Positions 12,181-31,790 of a DNA stretch of 44,980 bases are shown piece after piece (position 1 is the stretch's first letter; every line of letters begins with the position of its first letter). Under the pieces are notes generated by a model. The model had not been told where the DNA came from. It saw nothing but the letters and a program-made list of their open reading frames with translations, and made no database searches. The position numbers were made by a program, and so were the translations under genes. This DNA is from Candidimonas sp. (GTDB lineage Bacteria > Pseudomonadota > Gammaproteobacteria > Burkholderiales > Burkholderiaceae_B), in contig SCQX01000157.1 of NCBI GenBank assembly GCA_004298545.1, positions 1-44,980 on the forward strand, read 5' to 3'.

Positions 12181-13539
12181 TCACTCGACCCGGGCCAGCG
12201 CGCCGTCGACGCGATCGACCGCCCAGATATCGAGCCCCTCGATCGGCCGTCGCGGTGCGTTCGCCCGCGGAATGAGCGCGGTGCCGAACCCCAGCTTCGC
12301 CGCTTCCTTCAAACGTTCCTGACCGCGTGGCGCCGGCCGAATCTCGCCGGCCAGACCAACCTCCCCGAAGACGACGAGGCCCGCGGGCAGTGGGCGGTTG
12401 TGCAGCGACGAAACGATGGCCAGCAGAACGGGCAGATCGGCCGCCGGCTCCGCAATCTTGACGCCGCCCACCGCGTTGACGAAAACATCCTGATCAAACG
12501 TGGCAATGCCGGCGTGGCGGTGCAGTACCGCCAGCAACAATGCCAACCGGTTGCTCTCCAGGCCCACCGACAGCCGCCGCGGATTGGGCACGTGCGCGCC
12601 ATCGACCAGGGCCTGTATTTCGACCAACAGCGGCCGCGTCCCCTCTTGGGTGGCCATGACGCATGCGCCCGCCACGTCGCGATCATGCCGTGACAGAAAC
12701 AGCGCCGACGGATTGCTGACACCGCGCAAGCCGTGATCGGTCATGGCGAATACACCGAGTTCGTTCGCCGCGCCGAAGCGGTTCTTGAACGCGCGTATCA
12801 GGCGATACGCCGAGTGCGTATCGCCCTCGAAGTAGAGTACCGTGTCGACGATGTGCTCGACGACCCGCGGCCCAGCCAACGAACCGTCCTTGGTCACGTG
12901 TCCGATCATGACCACGGAAACGCCCATCTGCTTGGCCACGCGCGTGAGTTGCGCCACACATTCGCGCACTTGCGACACTGAGCCAGGCGCCGCGCCCAAG
13001 GCCGAAGAATAGAGGGTTTGAATGGAATCGATCACCGCCACGCGCGGTCGGCGCTGCTCCAGGGAATCCAGGATCGCCTCGAGCCGAATTTCCGCCAGCA
13101 GCTCCACGTCCGTGTCGCCAATGCCAACGCGGCGGGCGCGCAGGGCCACCTGCTCGGGCGATTCTTCACCCGTCACATACAGCACGCTGACGACGCGCGA
13201 CAACGACGCCGTGGCCTGCAGCAGCAGGGTCGACTTGCCTATCCCCGGATCACCACCCAGCAGAACCACGCCGCCGTTCACCAGCCCGCCGCCAAGGACA
13301 CGATCGAATTCGTCCAGGCCCGTCGGCTGGCGCGAAGTTTCATGCGCATCGATGTCGGCAAGGCGCAACACCGGCGAGCTCCCCGCAAGCGGCGCGTAAC
13401 GGTGTGCCTCTTCGACCGCCCGCGGGGCGGCCTCCTCTCGCAGCGAATTCCATTCACCACACTGCGCACAGCGGCCCTCCCACTTGGGGTACGAAGCGCC
13501 GCATGCGCTGCAGACGTATATCCGCTTAGCTTTTGCCAC
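12181..13539 (-). CDS. radA: DNA repair protein RadA
   Basis: 452 aa from the GTG start, near E. coli RadA (460). It is a RecA-like ATPase that helps branch migration and processing of recombination intermediates. An N-terminal four-cysteine zinc finger (C10, C13, C24, C27) is followed by the RecA core with Walker A GGDPGIGKST, the RadA hallmark KNRFG, and a C-terminal Lon-protease-like domain without an evident catalytic Ser-Lys pair. GTG at 13539 makes the family-typical start (M/V)AKAKRIYVC, with a GGGGGCGG stretch just upstream. In-frame ATG 13557 or GTG 13569 would add 6 or 10 residues. It is part of the minus-strand run from alr to phoU. Confidence 0.96.
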   Translation of the reverse strand: MAKAKRIYVCSACGASYPKWEGRCAQCGEWNSLREEAAPRAVEEAHRYAPLAGSSPVLRLADIDAHETSRQPTGLDEFDRVLGGGLVNGGVVLLGGDPGIGKSTLLLQATASLSRVVSVLYVTGEESPEQVALRARRVGIGDTDVELLAEIRLEAILDSLEQRRPRVAVIDSIQTLYSSALGAAPGSVSQVRECVAQLTRVAKQMGVSVVMIGHVTKDGSLAGPRVVEHIVDTVLYFEGDTHSAYRLIRAFKNRFGAANELGVFAMTDHGLRGVSNPSALFLSRHDRDVAGACVMATQEGTRPLLVEIQALVDGAHVPNPRRLSVGLESNRLALLLAVLHRHAGIATFDQDVFVNAVGGVKIAEPAADLPVLLAIVSSLHNRPLPAGLVVFGEVGLAGEIRPAPRGQERLKEAAKLGFGTALIPRANAPRRPIEGLDIWAVDRVDGALARVE

Positions 13540-13590
13540 GATCTGGCCCGCCCCCATCGGTTTGCGCACACGAATTGACCAAACCGTGCA

Positions 13591-14298
13591 CTACAGGCCG
13601 CCTCCACCGTCCACGCCCAGCACCTGGCCGGTGATGTAGCCCGCATCGTCCCCCAGCAGGAACACGACCGCAGCGGCGACGTCGGCGGGCTGCCCCACCC
13701 GCTTCATGGGGATGGATGCCAGCGCCCGGGCTTCCTGCTCGCTTCCCACCGGATGATTGGCGCGGAACAATTCGGTTTCGATCGGCCCCGGCGAGACCGC
13801 ATTCACCGTAATGCCGTATTCGGCCAGCTCGATCGCCCAGGTGCGGGTACAGCCGATGAGGCCGCACTTGGCAGCCGCATAGCTCGTACGGCCGATCGCC
13901 CCGCGCGCGGCTCGACTGCAAATATTGACGATGCGCCCCTGGCGGCGCGTCTTCATCGAATCCACGAACGCCTGGACCGTCTGCACCGCCACGCGAACGT
14001 TCAAATCGAACACGCCATAGAGTGACGCCAGTTCTACTTTACCCAATGGCTCGGGCATCACGATGCCAACGTTGTTGACCACCGCATCGACCGGATATTT
14101 TTCGCGTATCACCCGCAGGATTTCTTCCGTTTCGCCCGCATTGGCGAGATCGCACGAGTACAGGTAACCGGGAAAATCAATGTCTTGGGTATGGCGCGCG
14201 ATGCCGACCACGTGACAGCTCAGGTCGGCCAGCCGGCGACTGATGGCCCAGCCGATTCCTTTGGTTGCGCCAGTGACTAGTACGCACTTGTCTTTCAC
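13591..14298 (-). CDS. SDR family oxidoreductase
   Basis: 235 aa classical short-chain dehydrogenase/reductase, NAD(P)-dependent. The Rossmann motif is TGATKGIG near the N-terminus, followed by NNVG, the catalytic Ser in NICSRAA, and YAAAK with the catalytic Tyr and Lys. The C-terminus ends in the SDR-typical ITGQVLGVDGG. I chose GTG 14298 because AGGAGG (14305-14310) sits 6 nt upstream of it, but would directly abut the other candidate GTG at 14304. FabG is possible, but sequence alone does not give the substrate. It lies between alr and radA on the same strand with short gaps (36 and 51 nt), suggesting one transcript. Confidence 0.9.
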   Translation of the reverse strand: MKDKCVLVTGATKGIGWAISRRLADLSCHVVGIARHTQDIDFPGYLYSCDLANAGETEEILRVIREKYPVDAVVNNVGIVMPEPLGKVELASLYGVFDLNVRVAVQTVQAFVDSMKTRRQGRIVNICSRAARGAIGRTSYAAAKCGLIGCTRTWAIELAEYGITVNAVSPGPIETELFRANHPVGSEQEARALASIPMKRVGQPADVAAAVVFLLGDDAGYITGQVLGVDGGGGL

Positions 14299-14334
14299 GA
14301 ACACCCTCCTCTTGGCTCCGGCAGCAAACGCCAG

Positions 14335-15465
14335 TCAGTTGGAAACCACCTTCCGCGGCACGCGGGGCGCCACGGCGCACAGCAGCTCATAACCGATGGT
14401 GCCACAGGATGCGGCGACTTCATCGACCGTGGGTCCGCCCTCGCCCCACAGGACGACCCGCAATCCCACACGGGCATTCGGCACCGCGGTCAGGTCGACC
14501 GCGAGCATGTCCATTGAGACGCGTCCCAGCACCCGCGTGCGCACTCCGCCCACAGTGACGGGGGTGCCCGTGGGCGCATGCCGCGGGTAGCCGTCGGCAT
14601 ACCCACAGCATACGACACCGATCGTCATCGGCCGCGGCGCGCTGAACAAGTGGCCGTAGCCGACGCGATAACCGGCCGGAATCCGGCGCACGCTGATGAG
14701 TTCGGCCGAGAGTGTCATTCCGGGGCGCAGGTCGAAATCCGCGGCGGGCCGGCTGGCAAAGGGCGAAGCGCCGTAAAGGCAGATGCCGGGGCGCACCCAC
14801 TGTTCGACACCCGCCGGCAGGCGTGCCCAGAAGCCGGCGGTGAGCGTCGCCGCGGAATTGCAGACACTGACTCGCCCCGGAAGACCGTCCGTGACATTGC
14901 CAAACACTTGCAGCTGTCGACCCGTGGCGTCGGGGTCGTCATCCGCGCGGGCGAAGTGCGTCATCTTGCCGAGGCGCCCCAATATGCCGCGCCGTTGCAA
15001 ATCACCCGCCACGCGATAGGCATCCCGGTAAGCGTCGGGCGGGAAACCCAGGCGACCCATGCCTGAATCGAGCTTGATCATTGCGTCGATGGGCGTGCAC
15101 GGCGCCGCCAGCCGCAGCATGTCGAGTTGTTCCCGGGTGTGCACGGTGACCGTGAGACCATAGTGGTCGATCACCGGCAGGTCGGCGGCCTCGAAGAAAC
15201 CCTCCAGCAGCAAGATTGGCCGGGTCCAGCCCGCCGCGCGGCACTGGATGGCTTCATCGAGGTCGAGCATGGCAAGACCATCGGCCCGGGAAAACGCCGC
15301 CACCGCGCTCAAGATGCCATGGCCATAGGCGTTGGCCTTGACGACCGCCCAGATGAACGGCGCCGGGCGCGCGGGCGGACGGCTCCGGTCGAGGCCAGTG
15401 GCCACGACGGCAAGGTTGTGTGTCAACGACGGCAGGGAAACCGTGGCCAGGATGGGGCGCGGCAT
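14335..15465 (-). CDS. alr: Alanine racemase
   Basis: 376 aa PLP enzyme with a fold-type III TIM barrel. It converts L-alanine to D-alanine for peptidoglycan. The PLP lysine is K43 in VVKANAYGHG, and the second catalytic residue is Tyr270 in VGYGHLF. KLDSGMGRLGF (131-141) and GYADGYPR are family hallmarks. The frame is open to 15561, but ATG 15465 has a strong GGAGGAA a few bases upstream and gives the family length. It is first of a minus-strand series (alr, SDR, radA, kdkA, rpiA, phoU). I cannot tell the biosynthetic form from a catabolic DadX; the lack of dadA nearby favours the biosynthetic role. Confidence 0.96.
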   Translation of the reverse strand: MPRPILATVSLPSLTHNLAVVATGLDRSRPPARPAPFIWAVVKANAYGHGILSAVAAFSRADGLAMLDLDEAIQCRAAGWTRPILLLEGFFEAADLPVIDHYGLTVTVHTREQLDMLRLAAPCTPIDAMIKLDSGMGRLGFPPDAYRDAYRVAGDLQRRGILGRLGKMTHFARADDDPDATGRQLQVFGNVTDGLPGRVSVCNSAATLTAGFWARLPAGVEQWVRPGICLYGASPFASRPAADFDLRPGMTLSAELISVRRIPAGYRVGYGHLFSAPRPMTIGVVCCGYADGYPRHAPTGTPVTVGGVRTRVLGRVSMDMLAVDLTAVPNARVGLRVVLWGEGGPTVDEVAASCGTIGYELLCAVAPRVPRKVVSN

Positions 15466-15648
15466 ACTTCCTCCAGAAGAGCCAAAGTCTAATCCAGTTC
15501 GAGGGCATGCGCGACTTCGGGGCCCCCACCACCACACACGCCCCGCCACGCGCAAACCCATGATGATGAACGGGTTGCGCGTCGCGACGCGCCCACAGCT
15601 ACTACACTATGGACAGCGCCTGGCGGGGTCCCACTCACGGCCTCGACG

Positions 15649-15726
15649 GCGCGCCCCGCGCCGATGCAAGAGCATCCTCAAGGCGCCGCAGGGCTTCCAC
15701 AGCGCGGACGCGCGCCCCGCGCCGAT
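15649..15726. repeat. 17-nt exact direct repeat upstream of the HpnD-like gene
   Basis: The 17-mer GCGCGCCCCGCGCCGAT occurs at 15649-15665 and again at 15710-15726, a 61-nt period. The second copy runs almost into the ribosome binding site (AGGA) of the gene at 15738. The whole alr/HpnD-like divergent region (15466-15737) contains no other gene that I can support. Confidence 0.5.
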
Positions 15727-15737
15727 ACAGGAAAACC

Positions 15738-16601
15738 ATGGATCCCAACGAATACTGTAAAGAGAAGGCCGCCCGCGCCGGCACCAGCCTTCATTACGCC
15801 TTTCTGTTTCTGCCGCTCGAGCGCCGGCGCGCCGCCATTGCGCTGCATGCCTTCTCGCGCGAAATCGGCGATACGATCGCCAAGACGACCGAAATCTCAG
15901 TGGCGCGCGTCAAACTCGCCTGGTGGCGAACTCAGGTGGACCAGCTGTTCGCCGGGCAAACCAGCCACCCGGTCATGATCGCCCTCGCACCCCACGTGCA
16001 GCCTTACGGAATCACCGCCGAACGGATGCATGCGGTCATCGACGGCATGGAAACAGACCTCGACCAGTCAGGCTACCCCGATTGGCCAAGCCTTCAATCC
16101 TATTGCTGGCACGCCGCCGGCGTGGTGGGCGAAATGGCGGCGGGCGTGTTCGGCTACACCGATCCGGGCACCCTTCTTTATGCGGAAAAAATGGGGCTGG
16201 CCCTGCGGCTCACCAACATCATCCGCGATGTCGGCGACGACGCGCGGCGTGGGCGCATCTACCTGCCGGCCGACGATATGGAACGGTTCGGCGTGGCGCC
16301 GACCGACATTCTGAACGGCCGCTATACGGATCAGTTCCTGGCGCTGATGCGTTTCGAGACACAGCGCGCCCGCGACTGCTACCGCGAGGCAATGCGGATG
16401 CTGCCCGACGCCGACCGGCGGTCGCAACGCCCGGGCCTGATGATGGCGTCCATCTACCATACGCTGCTCGATGAACTTGAACGCGACCAATGGCACGTGC
16501 TGGACCAGCGCATCGGGTTGACGCCCATCCGCAAGTTCTGGCTCGCCTGGTCTGGCTGGGTCGGCGGCGGGCGGTCCATTGTGCGGCGGCTGAGCCATTG
16601 A
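15738..16601 (+). CDS. Squalene/phytoene synthase family protein, HpnD-like, with degenerate first Asp motif
   Basis: 287 aa, full length for HpnD (presqualene diphosphate synthase, which condenses two farnesyl diphosphates). Family features are LHYAFLFLPLERRRA at the N-terminus, KLAWWRTQVD (59-68), AAGVVGEMA (126-134) and the second Asp motif DVGDDARRGRIYLP (164-177). The first Asp-rich motif, normally DDxxD after a Cys/Ser-Arg-Glu, reads G44-D45-T46-I47-A48. Both outer aspartates that should bind Mg-diphosphate are therefore absent. No other hopanoid, carotenoid or squalene gene is in the window. It may be inactive, work differently, or have acquired another role, and this may be true of a whole clade. 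ATG 15738 has AGGA upstream. It is divergent from alr. Confidence 0.85.
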   Translation: MDPNEYCKEKAARAGTSLHYAFLFLPLERRRAAIALHAFSREIGDTIAKTTEISVARVKLAWWRTQVDQLFAGQTSHPVMIALAPHVQPYGITAERMHAVIDGMETDLDQSGYPDWPSLQSYCWHAAGVVGEMAAGVFGYTDPGTLLYAEKMGLALRLTNIIRDVGDDARRGRIYLPADDMERFGVAPTDILNGRYTDQFLALMRFETQRARDCYREAMRMLPDADRRSQRPGLMMASIYHTLLDELERDQWHVLDQRIGLTPIRKFWLAWSGWVGGGRSIVRRLSH

Positions 16602-16619
16602 GCCTGGCCGCGCCGCGCA

Positions 16620-18032
16620 TCAAATGGCGTGCTGGGTGATGTAGTCGCGCACCAGCGCGGGCTGGCAGGCCATGACGTGCACGCGTTGTGGCAGATCGAG
16701 CAGGTTGCGCAAATGCGCCGGCACGGGCGCGGGATGGCCCACCGCCTCGCGAATAGTCGCATCGAACTTCACGGCCAGCGCCGTTTCGAGCACCAGCATG
16801 GGAACGCCCGCCTCCACGTGCGCCCGCGCCACCTTGATGGCATCGGCCGTATGGGGGTCGACCAGCACACCCGACCGCTCATGCACCGTGCGTATCGTGG
16901 CCAGGCGATCGGCATGCGTACTCGTGCCGCCGACAAACCCGTAGCGGGCTTCGAAGCTGGGCTGTAGATCGCGCAGGTTGAACTCGCCGTCAGCGGCAAG
17001 CCGCTGCCACAGATCGCGTACGCGCGCCGCGTCGCGACCGACCAGATCGAACACGAAGCGTTCGAAATTGGAGGCGCGCGAGATGTCCATCGAAGGGCTC
17101 GACGTCGCGTAGGTTTGAGCCGCCGACCGCGGCCGATACACCCCCGTGCGAAAGAATTCTTCGAGCACGTTGTTTTCGTTGGTGGCAAGCACCAGATGAC
17201 GTATCGGCAGCCCCATGACGCGCGCGAAATGCCCCGCCAGAATGTTTCCAAAATTTCCCGACGGCACCGCGAATGATACTTCGCCGGGCGAGCGCGAACC
17301 GTCGGTCATGCGCAGCCAGCCCCAAAAGTAATACACCACTTGCGCGGCGATGCGCGCCCAGTTGATGGAATTGACCGCACCCAGCCGGTAGCGCGACTTG
17401 AACGCAAGATCGCCGGCCAGCGCCTTGACGATGTCCTGACACTCGTCGAACACACCGTCCATTGCCAGGTTGTGAATGTTCGCGTCTTGCAGCGAGTACA
17501 TCTGCGCGCGCTGGAATGCGCTCATGCGGCCGTGGGGCGACAGCATGAACACGGCCACGCCGCGCTTGCCGCGCAATGCGTATTCGGCCGCCGAGCCGGT
17601 ATCGCCCGAGGTAGCGCCCAGAATATTCAGCGTGGCGCGCCGCTGCCCGAGCACATATTCGAAAACCTGGCCCAGAAACTGCATGGCGATATCTTTGAAT
17701 GCCAGCGTGGGGCCCTGCGACAACCCGAGCAGCGTCAGACCGCCGTCGAGCGGCTTCAGCGGCACGATCTCGCGGCTGCCGAAGAGTGCCGGCGTATAGG
17801 CCGCACGTGTCAGGCGCAGAAGATCGGACGGTGGAATGTCGTCGATGAACAGCCCCAGGACAGCGGCGCCCAGCTCGGGGTAGCTCAGTGCCCGCCACGC
17901 CTCCAGTGTGTCACGTGGCACCCGCGGGGGCGACACTGGCACGGTCAATCCGCCATCGGGTGCCAGCCCTTCGAGCAAAATGTCGGAAAACGGCCGCGGC
18001 GTCATGCCGCCACGCGTGGATTCATAGTTCAT
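16620..18032 (-). CDS. thrC: Threonine synthase
   Basis: 470 aa PLP enzyme converting O-phosphohomoserine to threonine, of the longer proteobacterial/yeast type. The N-terminal MNYESTRG is typical. The PLP lysine is K113 in LAFKDIAMQFLG. The phosphate-binding loop is GATSGDTGSAA, followed by FMLSPHGRMSAFQRAQM. The ATG overlaps the stop of hom by 4 nt (ATGA), so translation is coupled. It is the last gene of alaC-hom-thrC and is convergent with the HpnD-like gene across an 18-nt gap. Confidence 0.97.
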   Translation of the reverse strand: MNYESTRGGMTPRPFSDILLEGLAPDGGLTVPVSPPRVPRDTLEAWRALSYPELGAAVLGLFIDDIPPSDLLRLTRAAYTPALFGSREIVPLKPLDGGLTLLGLSQGPTLAFKDIAMQFLGQVFEYVLGQRRATLNILGATSGDTGSAAEYALRGKRGVAVFMLSPHGRMSAFQRAQMYSLQDANIHNLAMDGVFDECQDIVKALAGDLAFKSRYRLGAVNSINWARIAAQVVYYFWGWLRMTDGSRSPGEVSFAVPSGNFGNILAGHFARVMGLPIRHLVLATNENNVLEEFFRTGVYRPRSAAQTYATSSPSMDISRASNFERFVFDLVGRDAARVRDLWQRLAADGEFNLRDLQPSFEARYGFVGGTSTHADRLATIRTVHERSGVLVDPHTADAIKVARAHVEAGVPMLVLETALAVKFDATIREAVGHPAPVPAHLRNLLDLPQRVHVMACQPALVRDYITQHAI

Positions 18033-19333
18033 AGCAGATGTTCCACCCTCAGGCGCGTCACGCCCGACTTGACGAAAGGCAGCGCCTGGATGCGGTCGAT
18101 GGCGCCATCGACCGCGCCCTCGCGTGCGTCGTGCGACAGGAAAATGATATCGGCATCGCTATCGCCGTGCGGGGTCTGGAACATGGAGCCAATCGATATG
18201 CCCGCCGCCGACAGGATACGCGAAAGATCGGCAAGCACCCCGGGGCGATCCTCCACGCGCAACCGCAAATAATAAGAGGACACGATTTCCGCCATGGGCA
18301 AGACCGGCGTGTCGTCCAGCGCATCGGGCTGGAACGCCAGATAGGGCACCCGGTGGTCCGGATCGGCCGAATCCAGGCGCGCCACGTCGACCAGGTCGGC
18401 CACGACCGCCGAGGCGGTCGGCAGGGCGCCAGCGCCCTGCCCATAGTACAAGGTTGGCCCGACCATGTCGCCGCTGACCAGCACCGCGTTCATGGCTCCC
18501 TCGACGTTGGCCAGCAGGCGGTCCGCCGGAATGAGCGTTGGATGCACGCGCAGTTCGAAGCCATCTGGCCGCCGCCGCGCGATGCCCAGCAGCTTGATCC
18601 GATAGCCCAGGCGCTCGGCGTGAGCGATGTCTTCCTGCGCGAGCTTTGACACACCTTCGATGTGCACCTTGTCGAACTGGACGGGAATGCCGAACGCCAG
18701 CGACGCGAGCAGGGTCAGCTTGTGCGCCGCGTCCACACCCTCGACATCGAACGTGGGGTTGGCCTCGGCATAGCCAAGTTGCTGCGCCTGCGCCAACGCG
18801 TCGTCGAACGACAGCCCGCGGGCGCGCATCTCCGACAGGACGAAGTTTGTCGTGCCATTGATGATGCCCGCCACCCACTGAATATGGTTGGCGGCCAGGC
18901 CCTCGCGTATGGCCTTGACGATCGGAATTCCGCCCGCGACGGCCGCCTCGAAGGCAACCATGACGGCATGTTCCCGCGCCGCGGAAAAGATCGTATTGCC
19001 GTGTATGGCAAGCAACGCCTTGTTGGCCGTGACGACATGCTTGCCGCGTCGGATGGCTTCCATCACCCAGGCGCGCGCCACCGTGTCGCCGCCGATGAGT
19101 TCGACCACGACGTCGATGGCGGGATGGCGCACGACTTCCATGCCGTCGGACGTGACCAGCACCCCGTCGCCGACCAGGCGGCGGGCCTTGGCGACGTCGC
19201 GTACGGCAATGGCCGCCACCTCGATGCGCCGACCCGCCCGACGGGCGATTTCCTCGGCGTTGCGCGTCAGGACTTCCCAAGTACCGGCGCCAACGACTCC
19301 CAGGCCAAGCAGACCGACCCTCAGGCCGCGCAT
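18029..19333 (-). CDS. hom: Homoserine dehydrogenase
   Basis: 434 aa, reducing aspartate semialdehyde to homoserine with NAD(P)H, the branch point to threonine and methionine. The N-terminal nucleotide-binding motif is [12 protein letters not shown]. The catalytic domain has [11 protein letters not shown] and [15 protein letters not shown]-terminal ACT domain ([20 protein letters not shown] and after) is the usual site of threonine feedback. It is monofunctional, with no fused aspartokinase. It overlaps alaC by 13 nt upstream and thrC by 4 nt downstream. I see no threonine attenuator leader in front of the operon. Confidence 0.97.
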
Positions 19334-30875: not shown

Positions 30876-31790
30876 TCAGTGATCGCGGCCCACGATGAAA
30901 TCGGCGACTTCCGCCAGACGGTGGCTCGCGGACCCCAGCGGGCGCAACGCATCGTGGGCCTGCGCGCGCAGCGACTCGAGCAGTTCGCGGGATCGTGTCA
31001 CCCCCAGGACCGAGACGTAGGTGGGCTTGTCCACCACGGCATCTTTGCCCGCGGTCTTGCCAAGGGTAGCCGTGTCGGCCGTCACATCCAGAATGTCGTC
31101 GACGACCTGGAATGCCAGGCCGATGGCCGCCGCATAATCTTCGAGCCCTTGGCGTACCGTGGAGCTGGCGCCGGCGACCACGCCGCCGAGCAACACGCTC
31201 GCCTCGAGCATCGCGCCCGTCTTCATGGCGTGCATGACCTGGAGCTCTTCACTGGTCAGCGTCCGGCCCACGCTCGTGCAGTCGATGGCCTGACCCCCCG
31301 CCATGCCCTGGCTGCCGGCCGCGCGCGCCAAGATCTGCGTGGCCTGCGCGATGAGCGCCGGCGCCACGGGCATCTGCGAAAGCAGGTCGAAAGCCAGCGG
31401 CTGCAGCGCATCGCCCACAAGCAGCGCGACCGCCTCGCCGAACCGCACGTGCACCGTCGGCTGCCCGCGCCTGAGCGTATCGCCGTCCATGCACGGAAGA
31501 TCATCGTGCACGAGCGAATAGGCGTGAACCAGCTCCACCGCCGCGGCGGCCTGGTCGAGCGCGATTTCCTGGGCGGAAACAGGTGTCTCGGGCGGAAGCG
31601 ATGCTTCGCCCGCCGCATACACCAGGACGGCGCGAACGCGTTTCCCGCCACCCAGCGTTGCGTACCGCATCGCCTGGTGCAGGACGGGGGGTACGAGCGA
31701 GGCTTCGGGAAGCGCCTGATCCAACACTGTCTCGACGTGGCGCGCCCGCGCGGCGAACCAGTCTTCAAACGCAACGGGGGTAGCCGACAT
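30876..31790 (-). CDS. ispA: Farnesyl diphosphate synthase (polyprenyl synthetase)
   Basis: 304 aa (E. coli IspA has 299). It makes geranyl and farnesyl diphosphate from IPP and DMAPP. The first Asp-rich motif is DDLPCMDGD (96-104) and the second is DDILDVTAD (231-239); GGGKRVR (47-53) binds IPP. The ATG is 2 nt after the xseB stop, a classic xseB-ispA pair, and dxs lies downstream. Farnesyl diphosphate goes to undecaprenyl and quinone pathways and would be the substrate of a functional HpnD. Confidence 0.97.
   Translation of the reverse strand: MSATPVAFEDWFAARARHVETVLDQALPEASLVPPVLHQAMRYATLGGGKRVRAVLVYAAGEASLPPETPVSAQEIALDQAAAAVELVHAYSLVHDDLPCMDGDTLRRGQPTVHVRFGEAVALLVGDALQPLAFDLLSQMPVAPALIAQATQILARAAGSQGMAGGQAIDCTSVGRTLTSEELQVMHAMKTGAMLEASVLLGGVVAGASSTVRQGLEDYAAAIGLAFQVVDDILDVTADTATLGKTAGKDAVVDKPTYVSVLGVTRSRELLESLRAQAHDALRPLGSASHRLAEVADFIVGRDH

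Follow-up and report, generated by a model that had tools for sequence, protein, structure and literature searches.

A lone HpnD homologue without its first aspartate motif is a predicted pseudoenzyme with recurrent counterparts in the Burkholderiales

Introduction

Why would a bacterium keep an intact hpnD gene whose product lacks the first aspartate motif and whose partners, hpnC and hpnE, are missing? The question is raised by a 44,980-nucleotide stretch of a Candidimonas sp. assembly (GCA_004298545.1, contig SCQX01000157.1; this whole stretch is hereafter the window), in which the gene at 15738..16601 (+ strand) encodes a lone HpnD homologue and predicted pseudoenzyme of 287 aa (TIGR03465, PF00494, model pLDDT 92.5). 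The original prediction took this protein for a catalytically dead or re-purposed member of its family under selection. As a sequence-based inference that reading is supported here: the partners are gone, omega is about 0.08 and the loss recurs.

Results

The open reading frame begins with an ATG at 15738, its stop codon ends at 16601 on the + strand, and its 287-aa product scores 337.2 bits against TIGR03465 (HpnD), above the curated cut-off of 278.6, and 247.7 bits against PF00494. By position (synteny) and by best-scoring model the gene is an HpnD orthologue. In pathway-bearing relatives the usual order is radA-SDR-alr-hpnC-hpnD-hpnE-thrC-hom, with hpnCDE divergent from alr, and the window has the same order minus hpnC and hpnE only. 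The conserved neighbours, all on the - strand, are radA (12181..13569, TIGR00416), an SDR-family oxidoreductase (13591..14304, NF005753), the alanine racemase gene alr (14335..15561, TIGR00492), the threonine synthase gene thrC (16620..18032, NCBIfam TIGR00260) and the homoserine dehydrogenase gene hom (18029..19333, NF004976). Where relatives carry hpnC, a gap of 176 bp (15562..15737) separates alr from hpnD, and where they carry hpnE, a gap of 18 bp (16602..16619) separates hpnD from thrC; a convincing remnant was found in neither.

The rest of the genome, estimated to be 96.9% complete, tells the same story: the lone HpnD is the sole PF00494 match, with no second such gene (hpnC, for example), and a search for squalene-hopene cyclase gave no match. 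The best HpnE match is 1.6e-7, which is not HpnE-grade, given that values across the family f1 fall into two groups, 1e-38 or better and 7.6e-19 or weaker. I take it to represent unrelated FAD proteins, because 14 of 14 control genomes also match and none exceeds the cut-off. The genome-wide search for hpnC, hpnE and shc that had been proposed as a check was thus run and found none of them, and a look for a hopanoid or carotenoid pathway elsewhere in the genome gave one PF00494 gene and no cyclase match. Also as claimed, a farnesyl diphosphate (FPP) synthase, the substrate supply for a working HpnD, is encoded at 30876..31790 (- strand; NF045485, 311 bits, cut-off 275).

At the site of the first aspartate motif, residues 44-48 (15867..15881, + strand), the protein reads G-D-T-I-A in place of DDxxD, whereas the second motif, D-V-G-D-D at residues 164-168 (16227..16241, + strand), is intact. 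Translation and alignments confirm both readings as first proposed; of the coordinates given for the first motif, 15864-15881, the end was correct and the start was not, since 15864 includes residue 43. G44 and A48 align with the two outer aspartates of the first motif in the dehydrosqualene synthase of PDB 4e9u. All Alcaligenaceae relatives in the homologue search have DD..D here (DDVVD or DDIVD), and farther homologues in the same search have DDxxD wherever the alignment spans the motif. A single sequencing error cannot account for the loss, because residues 44-49 depart from the usual DDVVDE or DDIVDE at five of six positions without a break in the reading frame. I considered whether G-x-x-x-A might be a clade-wide variant, but among the aligned sequences it is present only in this genome; the recurrent feature is that HpnDs lacking hpnC and hpnE have lost the D44xxxD48 pair.

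The description of the remaining protein as well kept was right in part. I defined near-invariant columns as those with at least 97% conservation across 73 pathway-type HpnDs, which gives 134 columns for the window; 115 are retained and 19 (14.2%) are changed, beyond all 73 controls, which with their own near relatives left out show 0-14 changes in 98-141 columns each (maximum 9.9%). These 73 sequences were chosen by their motifs, so motif counts within the set are circular, and for such counts I use a non-circular table of 60 loci classified by synteny (below). The changes include F18L, Y37H, C40S, S134A and Q157R, the last (codon at 16206..16208, + strand) lying close to the second motif at a position where Q has a conservation of 1.00 in the pathway-type set. 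Thirteen of the 19 fall within residues 1-49, a stretch with 34 of the 134 columns (hypergeometric P 2e-5, with the boundary chosen post hoc). D45, N160, R163, D164 and D168 are retained; with D45, the second motif, N160 and R163 in place, the protein may still bind FPP.

A structural model built from an alignment of 18 rows (mean pLDDT 92.5, pTM 0.89) predicts an intact SQS/PSY fold, including the helix that carried the lost motif (27-49). In a fold search the best solved matches to the model are CrtM-type synthases (Z 31-33, rmsd about 2), followed by HpnC (27.9) and YisP (26.2).

How widespread are such lone genes? A protein query with the window's HpnD finds a match in 260 of the 268 genomes of family f1, and HpnE exceeds its cut-off in 205 of 268. 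Squalene-hopene cyclase gave one weak match in the 268 genomes (26.5 bits, cut-off 26.1); apparently its members produce squalene or some other C30 compound but not hopanoids. A single and always divergent PF00494 match occurs in 7/8 genomes of g22, 8/8 of g26 and 7/7 of g39, as well as in the sole g7 genome, the three g23 genomes read (of 16) and G214 of g37, and the g13 genome G116 has one HpnD match. An HpnE-grade match was sought in the lone-HpnD genomes of g22, g26, g39, g7 and g23 and in G214 and G116, and none was found. The lone HpnD of G214 (L112/L193) is interrupted by an in-frame stop, a possible sign of decay.

The 60 loci were classified by whether hpnC and hpnE are present or absent near hpnD. 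Where they are present, D44xxxD48 and D164xxxD168 are kept in 31 of 31. In the lone HpnDs the D44xxxD48 pair is absent in 29 of 29 and D164xxxD168 is absent as well in 27 of the 29, being kept only in the window and in G116. Seven genomes are left out of this table (G092, G097, G181, G229, G263, G571 and G636) and are not counter-examples, because hpnC or hpnE adjoins hpnD in each. The first five were candidate exceptions that lack an HpnE-grade match, but hpnC adjoins their hpnD; the sequence stretches of G092, G181, G229 and G263 end just after hpnD and that of G097 ends within hpnE.

A PF00494 search found no match in three family members, G109, G140 and G124, each of which has NuoH. The genome of G124 is 3.4 Mb and 95% complete, with no PF00494 or HpnE-grade match, and its congener G123 has a full hpnCDE cluster. 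In G047, hpnD is split across two frames and NuoH also gives two partial matches, which points to sequencing errors.

In a tree of RadA, ThrC, Hom and AlaC (57 loci, built with FastTree and rooted at the midpoint), G116 is nested within the pathway-bearing g13 species, with support of 1.0. The window falls outside that clade, as the sister of g13 at 0.63, g23 lies apart with g32 (0.43, long branch), and g7, g22, g26 and g39 lie near the midpoint root. The tree thus gives at least three independent losses (G116, the window, and the basal group of g7, g22, g26 and g39), and probably a fourth in g23. G116 has changed 34 of the 134 near-invariant columns, and 10 changes are common to these 34 and the window's 19 (P 0.006); both proteins retain all 14 of the listed retained positions.

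A profile search of the order matched 356 of 399 sampled genomes, from which I selected 22 for weak or single matches. Seven of these have a lone HpnD with eroded motifs, in f3 (L237), f32 (L240-L243) and f40 (L244, L246), "lone" here meaning one profile match per genome and, in the fetched stretches, neither hpnC nor hpnE as a separate gene. They retain single aspartates, D48 in L237 and L240-L242 and D44 in L244 and L246, but never both. Of the lone HpnDs at large, the 7 that were tested against NCBIfam models score best as HpnD. Two further genomes (G571, G636), chosen for their single matches, have a pathway-type HpnD with an intact first motif and hpnE beside hpnD. Judged from the sequences by eye, two (f17, f18) have PF00494 proteins of another kind whose first motifs are intact, and the remaining 11 (f15, f31; L248-L258) have a longer SQS-type protein (open frame of 327-371 aa) that gives partial matches; no HpnD was found among the matches of the f15 and f31 genomes searched. 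Outside family f1, tig lies beside hpnD in f3 and f40, and an SDR gene and NAD kinase in f32; no common functional theme was seen among these neighbours. At L266 and L268 (and by eye L267) the trigger factor gene adjoins the lone hpnD, with clpP, and in f40 also clpX, appearing next by eye.

Selection on the lone genes, another check that had been proposed, is purifying on the window's branch. A branch model of 14 sequences (60 optimiser steps, one start) gives an omega of 0.082 for the window, 0.077 for G116 and 0.065 for the background, and omega = 1 is rejected for both lone branches (2 delta lnL 42.1 and 61.3, respectively). Pairwise values are 0.078-0.113 and 0.169-0.243 in two g22 groups, 0.045-0.164 in g26 and 0.066-0.082 in g23, with g39 saturated; pathway-type Achromobacter and Bordetella give 0-0.07. 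Since dS is large and saturated in many comparisons, these values are rough; that neutrality is rejected is the more secure finding. Lone HpnDs evolve under purifying selection where this is measurable, the 0.8-Mb genomes included.

What, then, do the lone genes retain? I compared 34 lone HpnDs (L097 and L112, which have short alignments, and identical sequences being excluded, along with the outgroup rows L058 and L172) with 22 distant homologues, which were treated as catalysts from their intact motifs alone. Of the first motif, the 34 retain D44 in two, D48 in four and both in none. W62-W63 (15921..15926, + strand) are both present in 34/34, whereas the distant homologues have W62 in 0/22 and W63 in 16/22. 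H77-P78 (15966..15971, + strand) are found in 33/34 and 32/34, against 0/22 and 6/22, and P263 (16524..16526, + strand), which starts the C-terminal LTPxRK helix, in 34/34 against 0/22. Among the 33 lone HpnDs besides the window's, W62, W63 and P263 are invariant, and H77, P78, Y20, K59, A56 and L83 occur in 82-97%. W62, H77 and P263 are present in 73/73 pathway-type HpnDs and in the plasmid-borne hpnCDE of Cupriavidus; they are absent from the HpnD beside shc in Mycetohabitans and from that beside hpnC/hpnE/shc in Sinorhizobium.

Conversely, D44, D48, R41, G131, N160, M236 and Y240 are invariant in the distant homologues and occur in 3-21% of lone genes. However, P177, L244, K266 and L60 are invariant in the distant homologues too, yet are kept by 85-97% of lone genes, and across the 134 columns lone-gene retention and distant-homologue conservation are uncorrelated (Spearman 0.08, P 0.38). 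The signature therefore rests on few columns.

Discussion

I consider it reasonably probable that the window gene encodes a pseudoenzyme that persists because of a catalysis-independent role which the enzyme already had. The gene would have been left behind when the window's lineage lost hpnC and hpnE, and without D44 and D48 the synthesis of presqualene diphosphate would be lost. HpnD of this order may be kept for a role independent of catalysis, with W62, H77 and P263 among the residues that mark it, and that second role would be older than the loss of the pathway. The active site would erode after loss of the squalene route, the window representing an early stage (first motif gone, second intact) and the 0.8-Mb genomes a late one (both gone).

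Of the alternatives, changed chemistry survives best, although I think it unlikely: the second motif and the pocket would bind Mg-FPP, and FPP would be hydrolysed or otherwise handled. The retained D45, N160, R163, D164 and D168 and the FPP synthase at 30876-31790 are consistent with it, as is YisP, a protein of the same fold that PMC10148934 describes as an FPP phosphatase (FPP to farnesol). For the window alone, with its second motif intact, a YisP-like phosphatase is possible, but it would not explain the relatives without both motifs; with D164xxxD168 lost as well in 27 of the 29 synteny-classified lone HpnDs, retention of the group as a whole is unlikely to be due to FPP chemistry. In the CrtM alignment, moreover, Q157R and the changed N-terminal helices fall close to the presumed substrate site.

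Somewhat less probable still is a relic in decay, in which hpnC and hpnE were lost recently and hpnD is on its way to becoming a pseudogene. The window's genus is represented by one genome in the comparison, G214 has its in-frame stop, and G124 has neither a PF00494 nor an HpnE-grade match, all of which would fit. Against this, the window's frame is intact, omega on its branch is about 0.08, 115 of the 134 near-invariant columns are kept, and other lineages kept the lone gene while their genomes shrank to 0.8 Mb.

That the protein is still a presqualene diphosphate synthase, working with a degenerate first motif, seems very improbable. It does exceed the TIGR03465 cut-off with its second motif intact, but D44 and D48 are present in 31/31 HpnDs beside hpnC and hpnE and in 22/22 distant homologues, and with HpnC and HpnE not found its product would lead nowhere known. 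An assembly or sequencing artefact is scarcely credible, for although the assembly is in 339 contigs with a contamination estimate of 4.8% and is the one genome of its genus in the comparison, several codon changes are in frame, the gene order matches relatives on both flanks, the GC3 of hpnD (0.80) fits that of its neighbours (0.76-0.82), and G116 is an independent parallel case.

If the window gene is instead kept for a role apart from catalysis, what might that role be? The likeliest mechanism, taken from analogy alone and itself doubtful, is that of a helical membrane-associated scaffold that matures an inner-membrane complex, as NDUFAF6 does for complex I. Only tentatively would I extend this to the order, where HpnD would be bifunctional, its second role being inner-membrane complex maturation, and the NDUFAF6 parallel would have arisen repeatedly, each time as catalysis was lost. 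NuoH is present in the window's genome and in 260 of 268 f1 members, the three without PF00494 included, and its co-occurrence with HpnD is thus non-discriminating. Because G109, G140 and G124 have NuoH without PF00494, complex I does not strictly need HpnD and the proposed role is not one that every member needs. The window's genome has two NuoH-type (PF00146) matches, most relatives one. For two trypanosomatid symbionts, PMC3616161 reports matches for all subunits of complex I and no complexes II or III in its text, and prints 0 for complex I in its Table 8.

If true, the second role matters enough to outlast the squalene route in genomes as small as 0.8 Mb, the size of an endosymbiont's. 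The non-catalytic job of the SQS/PSY fold is unsettled for NDUFAF6, to judge from PMC8007014, and the bacterial series makes the question testable: it spans recently inactivated proteins (the window, G116) to fully eroded ones (the 0.8-Mb genomes), with a presumably active form in sister species. A literature search of titles and abstract openings, with subscription journals mostly outside its coverage, returned no description of a lone inactive HpnD, and nothing linking HpnD with NDUFAF6 or Kinetoplastibacterium with phytoene synthase.

There is also a trap for annotation, in that the window protein clears the equivalog threshold for HpnD despite missing a supposedly essential motif and both partners. 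The motif-deficient window protein and L158 score 337 and 303 against the cut-off of 278.6 and would automatically be labelled presqualene diphosphate synthase.

How does the window protein compare with known systems? It is closest to HpnD (TIGR03465), of which it is the synteny orthologue, which is its best-scoring model, and whose second motif it keeps intact, but it differs in lacking the first motif, in Q157R, and in that hpnC and hpnE partners were not found. CrtM matches it in fold (2zco, Z 31.3, rmsd 2.2) but has both aspartate motifs (4e9u alignment) and only about 24% identity. YisP of B. subtilis (3we9) likewise has the SQS/PSY fold (Z 26.2, rmsd 2.0, 235 aligned), but is a distant relative only (E 4.8e-8) and its activity is that of an FPP phosphatase. 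Finally, NDUFAF6 and its fungal orthologue NDU1 are described in PMC8007014 and PMC12470011 as SQS/PSY-family proteins without the aspartate motifs that act in complex I assembly, and the latter reports no SQS or PSY activity for a nematode homologue. Although these proteins are eukaryotic, the window protein retains its second motif, and the likeness drawn here is one of description, they share with the lone HpnDs both the SQS/PSY fold and motif loss, which in 27 of the 29 extends to both motifs.
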